From: Siphonodentalium dalli
Lineage: Eukaryota; Mollusca; Scaphopoda; Gadilida; Siphonodentaliidae
Reading direction: 5' to 3'
Assembly (NCBI GenBank): GCA_032622095.1
Contig: CP136066.1
Location: forward strand, 173,599,164 to 173,663,163
Length of the DNA: 64,000 nt
Within the stretch, counting starts at the first letter, position 1. Every line of letters begins with the position of its first letter. The notes below the pieces were generated by a model. It made no database searches. It was not told the DNA's origin and saw only the letters and a list, made by a program, of their open reading frames with translations. Below are positions 27,801 through 36,800 of the stretch, piece after piece. The position numbers were made by a program, and so were the translations under genes.

Positions 27801-30800
27801 AATTTCGGAAAAAGCAATGCCTCCCATCTAGAGGTCACCCCGAAGACCCATATGAAGTTTGGTGATGATCGGACGAGGGATGTGGTCTGTAGGGTGAGCC
27901 AAAGGATTTAGTCATGCAAAGAGTAAAATCAAAGATGGCTGCTGGCGGCCATGTTTTTTTGTTGAATTTCGCAAATAATCGATGGCTCCCATCTAGAGGT
28001 CACCCCGATGACCCATATGAAGTTTGGTGATGATCTGAAGAGGACGTGGTCTGTAGGGTGAGCCAAAGGATTTAATCATGCAAACAATGTAAAATCCAAG
28101 AAGGCTGCTGCAGCCATGTTTTTCATCGATAATTGCTAAAATTTGATAGCTCCCATCAAGAGGTGATCCTAAACATGCCTGTAAATTTGCAAAACATATC
28201 TCCAATAAATGCGGGCTGCAGGGTGTGCCGATAGATTCAAATTTGAAATTCAAAATGGCTTGTTTTTTTAACGAATTTTGGAAAAAATCGATGGCTCCAT
28301 CTGTAAGATCCATATGTAGTTTGGTGATGATCGGATGATCCGGCCTGTAGGGTGAGCCAAAGGAAATTGTTGATGGACGGACTAACGACGGACAGCAACC
28401 CACGGCAATAGCTCAAACTTTACAAAGTAAAGTTGAGCTAATAATAAACAAGAAAGCATTTGTTTATATACAACCGGTTCTGTAACAGAATTAGGCTTTT
28501 GTTTACATGTACTATTTACATGATATTTATGATTGGTATATGACCAAAGTCTTGTCTATATTTTAATATTCTTTCTGTTTGTGGTGGTTTTAAGGGATGT
28601 GACTATTTTAACAGCAACTCCCCCCCCCCCCCCCCCTGCGAAAACCCTCTGTATCTTTAAGAAATAACTTGAAAACATACCTTTCAGCTACTGCTAACAA
28701 ACGCTCAGGTCTGAACGTTCCCTCAGTATCAACATACATTGCTTTTCCTTCTCCACCGCCCATATCTATTGGTAACTGAAAATAAACAGTTTGGCTTCAG
28801 CAATACATGTGGTCATCAGGGGCATGTTCTATATTTCTTAACAACATGCCAGCACACAACAATATCACAAATTGCACAAAATGGAAATATATGTGCATGG
28901 GACCCTTCCAACCACTGGGGAAAAATCACAATCTAAGCAATTAATCCCTGCATGATGGGAGCAGCACTGGGGCAGCATTAAAGATCCTGTGCCATACAAT
29001 CTCTTATATATATGCAAGTCTCCCATAGGGAGCCTCGAATATATATAAGAGAATGCACTGACTTGCAATATCAAGCTAAATATTGTTAGGCCAAAGCATT
29101 CTCTTATAAATGCAAGTCTTCCATATACTCCCATATATAAGAGAATGCATTGGCACAGGGTTTCGCTAGTGTTGAAATGATTAGGGGTTTTCAGAAGTCG
29201 ACTAGTAGACTATAAGTCATTTAGTCGAACCCCATCTTCTGGGGACATGATTGACAATGAAGCGTCTTTTCAAGCTATATTTTGAAAACTGTTATTCGTA
29301 AGTTTCTGACTGATTACGTCACAAATATGTTGTTAATGCCAACATAATGGTAATTGTCACAAGAAACCAAGGCCAAACAAAATTAGAATCCTGTTTCTCA
29401 AAGATCGCCGCCCCCTTAAAATATGGCCCGCCCGGTGCTTTTTTCCCCCATCCCAAAATAAAAAGGTAAATCACAGCCGCCGCTTGATATAATATCGCAA
29501 ACAGTCGTCTCGCAAAGCCAGCGATGTCGTTCTGCTTCTTTGATCAAAGAGAGAGAACTCTACTTCCGATTCATCCGGTACATTTGTTTGCACCGGTAAA
29601 CTATTTACGCACCGCTTCCCGTCTGCCAAAAATGGCGTCTCTTATAAATATATCGGCGTTTTCGGGTTTTAAAAATTTAATTCCTTGGAAAATTATAGAA
29701 GTAAGCAAAACAGATACAGTTCGTAAACTGTGCGAACATTTTATACGTAATAGTGATGGTAACGAATGCAGTGTTGACAGTAATTTTACGGTGTCTGTGG
29801 CCAAAACAAAGGGAAATGACTTTTCTGATTTTGATCTAGTGTCACAATCACTGGTCGTATATCAGGTGGCGGATATATTTGGACGCTATTTCAGGATAAA
29901 TATAAAACCTGCTCCTAATTTGCTGGATGATGCTCCAGATATACCAATATTGACAACAAATGAACATTCTGCATTCTCTATTCTAATGGAGGAAAGAAGA
30001 GTGTTGCCGAAAATCAAGTTGGACAAACGCAATAACCGGGACGAATTAACTTCAAAGTTTATTGCATTTCTCGCCTCAAGGAATCTCGGCTTTTCATCAC
30101 AAAGTGTAGAAGTCATTGGCAAGAATTTTGTACAATTAATTTGTAACGTCATATGGTACATAGATCCACACCGTGGAAAACTCTGTGATCGGTCGTGCCA
30201 AGTACCAGAAGAATTAAACGGGCTCTTCGGTCTGCATGATCCAAGACGATCGAAGCATAAGCTTCCGGTGTTGGAGCAATCAAAGTTGCTTGAGTATAGT
30301 GGTCAGTTGGCAGCAATGCTAGAGCAACCGTTCATACAAAGACAGTGTTGGGCTGAAGTCAAAAGTATTGTGATTACGCTGACGGACTCACTTCAAAAGT
30401 ATGCGGCCTATCTACACAAACAAAGGTTGGTTGTTGGGGAGAACCATGAAGCCACACAGCCGGTACGTGATCAAAACGATGCTGAGGATTTGTGCCGAAT
30501 CACACCTAAGTCCGTAATTAAACCAACATTTGTGGTCAGGTATAAGACTCTTGCAGATGCACTGCAGAATGCGTCTGTTGGTGAACCCATATGTCTTGAT
30601 GAATTCACCCCCGAAAATAATCAGGAGAGGCAACATTATTTGCGATATATCAGGGAAATGTTTCCAGTGTCTGCATTCATGTATTCCTACAGCTACGGGA
30701 ATAATCTAGGGACATACCACTACCTGTGGAAGCCTGATACCTGTTCCGACGACAGTGAGCAGCTCTCAATGAACACACATATCATAACCAAGTTAAAATC

Positions 30801-33800: not shown

Positions 33801-36800
33801 AAGACCAGTACTCCAAGTATGTCTAGTGTAAAGCCACCATTTCCCTTGTCAGGCCATACTGCTAGCAACGTAAGGGAAACAGCAACTTGCACCGAATGCA
33901 TGAAACCTCGTGTCATGCACAGCAAATCGCAATTTATAATATCGGAGAAAGGCACTCTAAATAAATTCATACAGTTCTATGAATACAGTTGTGGAGCAGA
34001 TATCCATGATCTTATATCAGATAAAGCTCCTCAAGTTAGCAGTATACTCAGGAAGCTATTCATTAGACCATTCAAATGCCAAGATGATATAGAAACTGCT
34101 TATTACAGTTCAAAGTGTTTCGTGGATATCTGCGTCAAATGTGGTTCAGGTGATGATCTTGTAAAAACAGAAGGGGTTTTCCCACAGTGTAATGGGTGTC
34201 TTGTCAAATTTCCTATTATTCAGAGGAGAAAGAGGGCGGCTAATAGTAAGGGGAATCTCGGTGGTGGCAAGAAAGGTAAAAAGGGATAGATAGTATGTTT
34301 TGTCAGGATTTCTCCTCTTTGCAAAGTTCATGGTTTTACATGAACAATCTTGGCATTTGGCATTGTATTAAACTATTAAATCTTGGCATTTGAAAGTACA
34401 ATGTACTTATTTCTGAGTCTGAGTTCCATATAAATATGTTTGCCTATTTTCTTTTTTGGGAGTATCAAATACAAGTGGAAACATGTGATACTACATTAAA
34501 TTTCATATTTCATAATATATAAAATAATAAATATCCAAATAAACATTTTATTAAAGTAACCAAACGTAACCATGCAAAATCTGATATGGTCACATAATTC
34601 ACACATTGCACTCGAAAATGATTGTGAAATGTTTTTCTGTAGTGATTAAAGGTACTCAATCCGATCAGAGGGTCCTATATTACTATTTCTTTGGCTTTGG
34701 GGGTAAAAAAATAATTTATTCGAGTCGAGGAACCTACCAATCAACGCTCAGGGTGATCAGATATCGATATTAGAAGTTTCGTTATTTCTATTCTTTCTGG
34801 CCCAGAACACAGTCAAAATTGCGTTATTATTACCACTTGATTTTAGAGTTCCATCCTTGTCTGTTTGAATAGTGTTTTTGTGTACACATCTCGAGCAGAT
34901 TACAAATTTAAGGGCAATTATTAGTACTCATCTCGAGAAAATAAAAAATTTCAAAAATCAATATCTAATAACTCTTTGTTTGATGGGTTGCTCGACTCGA
35001 ATCAAATATTTTTTACCCCCAAAGCGAAAGAAATAGTAATATAGGACCCTCTGATCGGATTGTTGTTGTTGGAATCTGTTGAGATGGGGACCCTCTGATC
35101 GGATTGAGTACCTTTAAAATATAAAGATTTATCCATACATAGTTTAACTTGTATATGATCATCTCTAATCTCATTTGTTTAATACTTCTGTTTCTTTATA
35201 TAATTGTTATATGCATATGTGAAAACTACAGGTTGTTTAATGTTCAAAATTAAAGTTTTTAATAAAACAATGGTATTACATATGTAAAAACCTGCCTGCC
35301 GGTAAAATTTTGTCATAAAAAGTAGATATAAAAACCTGCCTGCTGGCAAATTTTAGTCATAAAAACATTATATACAAACCTGCCTGCCTGCTGGGTTTGA
35401 AAAAAAAATCCTTTGAGAAACAGGAAATTAACTTTGTGTGGCCCAATCAATAATAAAAATACTAGTAATAGGCTCGATGAATGTATCTAATCTATATGAA
35501 TACGGAAATTGCTGTAGAAAAGGTGTAAACATGCTTGTTAAGAAATCGGAATTTCCAAATTACGTAATGCTGAACAAAATCCGGAACAGTTGAACCGGCG
35601 CTAGAGAAAAAGTTATGGGTCGATGACTTTGGTAACAACTTGAACAGGACCCATAGAAGAATCAGTGTAGTGAATAATAGAGCTGCAACGATTCATCGTG
35701 ATTTTGATGTATCATGATACGCTTTCACACGATACGAAGTGTGAAGTGTATCGCGATACACAAATATCACAATTTTAGGTCATCGAATGCGAAAATAACC
35801 CATATTTACTGTGTTTTTTTTTTTTAGCAATTTAGGTAGAAAATCCTCGCAAAACATGGTTTTTGCGTATCATGATACGTAACGTATCGTTGGTCATGTA
35901 TCGTGACAAAGTGTATCGTTGCAGCCCTAGTGAATAATATAGAAGCTAATTAAAACAATATACCAGCTAGTGCAGCAGCTCACAAGCATAGAGTTGTCAG
36001 CCCCCTTTTGAGAAAACTAGGGACATTATTTGGAGATCTTTACACCTTATGTTATTTATGGGGATTAGTAGGCCATGTTGGGTATTTGTTTCGATTAATC
36101 GACTGGCCGATTTTAGCATCAACCTATTTAATAATCGAGTCGATGTTGATTAGTCAACTAATCGATTCAACATTAGTTTTCACAAAATTTTAGGAAGCTC
36201 CAGTCATGTAAGGGTTAATTTTGAATATCTAGTGATTAGTAAATGATCCCCTAAATTAACTCAAATGGTAGATTCATCATTAGTATATTACATGTACTTG
36301 TAAAACGTGATTCGCAAAGTATACACAATGTAATCAGATATAATCAGATTGCTTTGGCGATGTCGACTTCGATGTCTTCCAGAATAAGATTGTTTTGTAG
36401 GAATTAACTGTCGATGTATGTATCCTTGAATAGAATTATTTTACCGGGAAGCTGGCATTGCAACTAAAACAAGAGATGGACTGTTGTCAAGTGCATACCG
36501 CCTAATGTGGGCATACCACCTAATGTGGGCATACCTATAACCTATGGCTGATATACTCAGACAGATGGACCCAAAAATCAGCATTTTCAGATAAACAAAG
36601 ATGAATAACTATAGAACGAAAAACAAACAAAATGATTGAATACGTCATTGAATGTCCTCATAGTGATGAACATCCATACCAAATTTCATTGAGATCTAAG
36701 CACTGCTGTTCAAGTTATAACATGAACAGACATCGGACAGACCAAAAAGCCAACATTTCCAGATAAACAAAGATGAATAAAACTAGAATGGAAAATCAGA

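Follow-up and report, generated by a model that had tools for sequence, protein, structure and literature searches.

A family of GGCC-ended DNA transposons in the scaphopod Siphonodentalium dalli with a probable relationship to ISAzo13 and Zator elements

What kind of transposon occupies positions 29371-35443 of a 64,000-nucleotide stretch of the genome of the scaphopod mollusc Siphonodentalium dalli (assembly GCA_032622095.1, contig CP136066.1, positions 173,599,164 to 173,663,163 of the forward strand; hereafter the window)? The initial annotation, made from the sequence alone, described a DNA transposon with GGCC ends, a 3-bp duplication and a predicted DDE enzyme, and placed it in an undescribed superfamily apart from the known ones. 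The description of the element is confirmed by its genomic copies and by a structural model; the proposed superfamily is not borne out, as the catalytic core has a profile match to bacterial ISAzo13, the counterpart of eukaryotic Zator. We consider it likely, if some way from certain, that the window copy, which a hAT-like insertion has broken, belongs to an ISAzo13/Zator-type family of cut-and-paste DNA transposons.

The element is bounded by 33-bp terminal inverted repeats at 29371-29403 (plus strand) and 35411-35443 (minus strand), which match at 28 of 33 positions and carry GGCC at each end, and by a target site duplication CAA lying just outside them at 29368-29370 and 35444-35446. The repeats and the flanking CAA had both been reported in the initial annotation and both stand on comparison of the sequence. 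When 33-mers from the window are paired at random 20000 times, no pair reaches 28 matches and the best has 22; random 3-mers agree in 1.9% of draws. The whole genome (2.23 Gb in 9 contigs) was searched with each end, with best candidates only being scored and copy numbers being lower bounds. With the left end and 150 bp of flank as query, 38 of the 39 other places listed align from 29366-29371 onward and the remaining one from 29383; with the right end and its flank, homology stops at 35442-35461 in the 42 other matches listed. Both borders are therefore fixed by many copies and not by the window copy alone. A listed right end can be paired with 32 of the 40 listed left ends, at spacings of 577-917 bp (25 pairs, median 857 bp), 1908 bp (one pair) and 4.7-6.5 kb (six pairs), the figure for the window copy including 150 bp of flank.

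Using the 1135-residue protein of the element as query, the genome yields 59 matches with identities from 100% to 28%, some of which are pieces of a single copy; among those covering most of the query, identity goes down to 36%. The expectation that homologues should share GGCC ends and 3-bp duplications holds in all 11 copies besides the window copy in which both ends were read and which were not chosen by their flanks: each has GGCC ends and a perfect 3-bp duplication, the triplet being TTA or TAA in ten and AAA in one. Counting the window copy, GGCC ends are present in 12/12 and TTA/TAA in 10/12, the others being CAA (the window) and AAA. Among close copies, the same triplet is found on both sides of L002/L046 (TAA), L005/L048 (TTA) and L006/L049 (TTA), while L003, L007 and L031 were read at the right end only and L004 at the left only. 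A related family (L034-L040), 36% identical to that of the window, has copies that are 99.7-99.9% identical to each other with an open frame of 1126 residues in 7/7; GGCC ends and 3-bp duplications (four TTA, one TAA, one AAA) are present in 6/7, L034 having lost its left end. Most paired ends are close together, and the two of the 25 short copies that were read in sequence (L067 and L068) match only bases 1-533 and 5845-6073 of the element, with TAA on both sides. These are internal deletions, which would have been moved in trans by enzyme made elsewhere, as is usual for such derivatives.

A second scan for ends, selecting on GGCC and an inverted-repeat match and not on flanks, returned 22 stretches from 19 places (L025/L032, L026/L033 and L022/L041 overlap). 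Eight end pairs match at 16/20 or better, and seven of these (in L010, L011, L015, L019, L032, L033 and L045) have equal 3-bp flanks; the remaining one, which is a further pair in L019, is flanked by ATT and AAT. Such a pair was not found in the other 15 stretches, in several of which the right end probably lies beyond the stretch. Taken together, this is a genuine multi-copy and recently active cut-and-paste family.

Some copies may not be independent insertions. L010 (C3:60.09 Mb) and L011 (C3:60.27 Mb) have outer flank sequence in common and are perhaps one insertion duplicated with its locus, and L003 (C3:41.27 Mb) and L031 (C3:41.29 Mb) likewise have flanking sequence in common; in both cases the shared flanks suggest local duplication of the locus rather than two insertions. 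At L043:967-7839 two GGCC-ended pairs lie one within the other with TTA flanks on both, perhaps representing one element nested in another. L043 and L044 were found by a scan that selects on equal flanks, and are left out of the counts above.

The transposase gene lies on the plus strand in two parts, 29524-32045 and 33404-34289 (stop codon included). The initial annotation had described one long gene of about 1135 residues; it is not continuous in the window, where the frame that opens at 29524 stops at 32076 because a 1350-bp insert at 32046-33395 interrupts it, although joining the flanks of the insert restores a frame of 1135 residues. The insert has 16-bp perfect inverted ends (TAGAGCTGAAACGGTT) and is flanked by an 8-bp duplication (ACATTGAT; 32038-32045 and 33396-33403), as in hAT elements, and copies L002-L007 are without it. 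Residue 37 (29632) is the probable true start, as full-length homologues begin no more than a few residues away from it, and the protein is therefore probably about 1099 residues long.

An RNase H-like fold for the catalytic region (residues ~560-795, 31201-31908, plus strand) is predicted by a model built from 24 sequences and by its fold matches, the best Foldseek match being the Mos1 mariner transposase. An earlier model from 14 sequences (pLDDT 57), in which Argonautes were the top matches and integrases ranked lower, was replaced by it. In an alignment of 24 rows the likely catalytic residues are invariant: D626 (codon 31399-31401) in 24/24, D735 (31726-31728, within DGGPDHR) in all 23 lettered rows with one gap, and E779 (31858-31860, within ERIMS) in all 21 lettered rows with three gaps. 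Whereas the initial annotation had left the first aspartate as either D626 or D627, the latter is Asp in 23/24 rows; D626 is the likely first catalytic residue since it is invariant and aligns with an invariant Asp of ISAzo13 (D186).

On either side of the core the protein has additional regions on the plus strand: an N-terminal segment (residues 37-129, 29632-29910) with a predicted ubiquitin-like, beta-grasp fold, and a C-terminal region with conserved clusters of putative zinc ligands and a basic tail (33585-34289). The Cys-x2-Cys clusters noted at the outset are invariant, with H-x13-C-x4-C-x2-C, C-x2-C and C-x2-C..C-x2-C kept in 12/12 aligned tails; these were taken from S. dalli, from one protein of Rhizophagus and from other sources, and include the 99% identical copy L002 and exclude the tail of the window copy itself. 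The tail may bind zinc, and it and the ubiquitin-like fold could perhaps serve in target or chromatin contact, or in assembly. The name zf-CW was considered for the tail and not adopted, the matches being weak (E values of 0.0005 and 0.0012, not reaching the curated threshold), limited to the homologues P0013 and P0011, and covering part of the tail.

The link to ISAzo13 comes from profile comparison. The window protein has no curated family match: a Pfam scan with E values up to 10 gave no family, NCBIfam gave no match, PHROGs gave no informative family and a sequence search of the PDB gave no match. When the core (560-830) is aligned by hhalign with ten ISAzo13 transposases, the probability is 91.5 with a score of 55.5, and both the HDF motif and the catalytic residues fall in register. 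In controls, 200 column shuffles score at most 26.4 and the reversed profile 19.3, IS21, IS6, IS1634 and IS5 score 13.7-16.6, and five IS630 sequences score 19.7, so that IS630 is at noise level against the scaphopod family; ISAzo13 and IS630 profiles score 60 against each other. Random five-sequence subsets of ISAzo13 score a median of 47.8 (range 16.6-60.3). Single ISAzo13 sequences score from 10.8 to 44.4, so it is the profile that carries the link. Catalytic motifs follow one order (D-x-K..VG, HDF, DGG, P..S..N..E) in both, with D-x43-E in the scaphopod element and D-x42-E in the ISAzo13 record L051.

A second and weaker line toward ISAzo13, shown in part, comes from the ends and target of the bacterial elements. 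Eleven ISAzo13 stretches with both sides were read (L054 and L055, without a right side, were left out), and GG ends beside a direct TTA/TAA are readable in five: one each from Oscillatoria and Calothrix, and three that are copies of a single Mesorhizobium element. In L057, TTA/TTA with a GAG end occurs in a lower-ranked pair, and four of the 11 show nothing clear at their ends. A Streptomyces ISAzo13 element (L052:622-2318) has GGG ends with inverted TAA/TTA neighbours and no direct duplication.

Several observations qualify the assignment to ISAzo13. The profile match is of moderate strength, at 82.9 and 91.5 probability across comparisons. PF07592, the ISAzo13 family in Pfam, which we take to be the same as TP36, is not among the Pfam families listed for the 16 aligned members nor among those of L008, L017 and L034, whereas the positive controls L051, L057, L058 and L059 match it strongly; for want of this match, the family is not filed as a member of PF07592. 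For the Mesorhizobium copies, other inverted-repeat registers score slightly better, and TAA may belong to the element because all copies share C-TAA and TAA; GG ends beside TTA/TAA are therefore at most a candidate hallmark of the ISAzo13 family. There are also differences in build: the bacterial proteins are ~400-700 residues long in the records compared and have no Cys-rich tail apparent in the alignment, unlike the scaphopod protein of ~1100 residues, and ISAzo13 ends are GGA or GGG in place of GGCC. PF07592 and one ISAzo13 protein, used as queries against the S. dalli genome, gave no match, and as no control matched either, this does not show absence.

Relatives of the protein are also found outside the genome. 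At least 15 were recovered in a first search and one more (P0136) in a profile search, both of which scored the best-sharing candidates only (the best 7991 in the profile search). Crassostrea virginica, Rhizophagus and Scutellospora are among the source names, and the homologues that have one carry a locus code or a label such as hypothetical or uncharacterized. Among P0011, P0012 and P0013, the protein from Rhizophagus clarus has 50% identity across 45% of the query, and its two relatives have 51% across 45% and 57% across 30%. Such a patchy distribution in animals and fungi may reflect horizontal transfer or wide loss. One scan of viral contigs by two peptide patterns gave 33 stretches and one scan of prokaryote contigs by three patterns gave 366, none of which is a relative by tblastn. 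In a distant relative, P0015, a long extension at the C-terminus includes the sequence GDTLCGFRVL, which is reminiscent of OTU-type cysteine proteases; a Pfam scan of P0015 with E values up to 1 lists no such protease family.

In the 3' untranslated part, at 34646-35117, lies a palindromic insert bounded by TTAA on each side, a target like that of piggyBac or Kolobok elements. It is at least partly present in L002, L003, L005, L006, L007 and L031, so it was probably carried along in amplification. Besides the two transposase parts there is no plus-strand frame of 80 or more residues, and three minus-strand frames (88-135 residues) have no Pfam match; shorter or spliced genes are not excluded.

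We propose that one protein of about 1100 residues would bind the GGCC-ended inverted repeats, that its RNase H-like site (D626-D735-E779) would cut the ends of the element, and that a 3-bp stagger at insertion, for the most part into TTA/TAA, would give the 3-bp duplication. A single protein may suffice for transposition, and the activity of the enzyme and the order of these DNA steps are inferred. The family probably works like the ISAzo13/Zator branch and is probably descended from it.

Other placements can be weighed against this one. That the element is a domesticated host gene or a chance inverted repeat, as the long conserved reading frame might suggest, is refuted by the copies, which number in the dozens, are dispersed, and combine sharply defined shared ends with flanks that differ; we give it practically no weight. 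Little more can be said for a divergent PIF/Harbinger element, which we regard as very improbable: this superfamily makes 3-bp duplications of the TWA type, matched here by TTA/TAA in 10/12 copies, but neither the window protein nor the scanned relatives have a Pfam match to a DDE_Tnp_4-type transposase, no separate Myb-like protein is evident in the frames of 80 or more residues described above, and the top fold match is mariner and the profile match ISAzo13 (PIF/Harbinger profiles being outside the hhalign set). CACTA/EnSpm elements have CACTA/G ends in contrast to GGCC, and the Pfam scans give no match to the rve integrase domain of Ginger. Neither Academ nor KDZ appears among the fold matches, an absence that carries no weight. 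Tc1/mariner and IS630 have the RNase H fold and an NP-x-E motif in common with the element; they differ in duplicating TA, whereas 3 bp are duplicated here, with CAA and AAA among the triplets, and Mos1, at 345 residues, is about one-third the length of the scaphopod protein.

The closer alternatives concern Zator. This is described, in the portions of the sources available, as the eukaryotic equivalent of ISAzo13, 3-bp duplications being common to the two (PMC10045372; PMC5718144), as derived from bacterial TP36 elements (PMC7386202), and with TP36 as part of the IS630-Tc1-mariner group (PMC7386202; PMC8533490), a placement that fits the Mos1 fold match. That the element is an ordinary Zator already filed in Repbase, with its size, N-terminal domain and tail being normal Zator features, is possible but doubtful. 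The eukaryotic host and 3-bp duplications agree with the published description, on which alone Zator is compared here; a comparison involving C. gigas reports Zator in bivalves and only two Zator sequences in Repbase (PMC10294476, in the part available), and one homologue is annotated from Crassostrea virginica. Against it, PF07592 is matched by neither the window protein nor the scanned relatives despite the TP36 origin of Zator, and the named homologues carry no such label. A superfamily of its own, either a sister group of Zator or one arising independently from a bacterial ISAzo13-like element, is a stronger contender, although we put it somewhat short of even. The missing curated match, the moderate profile match, the distinct architecture with its conserved tail, and the lack of confirmed relatives in the single viral and prokaryote scans all favor it; the identical order of ISAzo13 catalytic motifs and the similar target and GG ends of some ISAzo13 elements argue the other way, and the profile match to a named superfamily, moderate as it is (probability 83-92%), weakens the claim. 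Among the open-licence PMC papers listed, nothing was recognised as this element. Such a superfamily would tentatively be an undescribed one that combines a mariner-like core with a ubiquitin-like domain and several zinc clusters, occurring in oyster, arbuscular mycorrhizal fungi and S. dalli, and recently active. The assignment to the ISAzo13/Zator branch is preferred, and the family is probably a divergent lineage of it, distinguished by the predicted ubiquitin-like start and the Cys-cluster tail, rather than a wholly new kind, Zator being known to us by description only.

These eukaryotic elements have clear borders, and their catalytic motifs, along with perhaps their ends and target, tie them to ISAzo13, a named family of bacterial insertion sequences, through a relationship that curated profiles miss. 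Transposition is open to direct testing, since the related family has seven copies that are >99.7% identical and have an open frame. With the predicted ubiquitin-like domain and the Cys clusters added, one may ask which requirements a eukaryotic host places on an enzyme of the ISAzo13 type.

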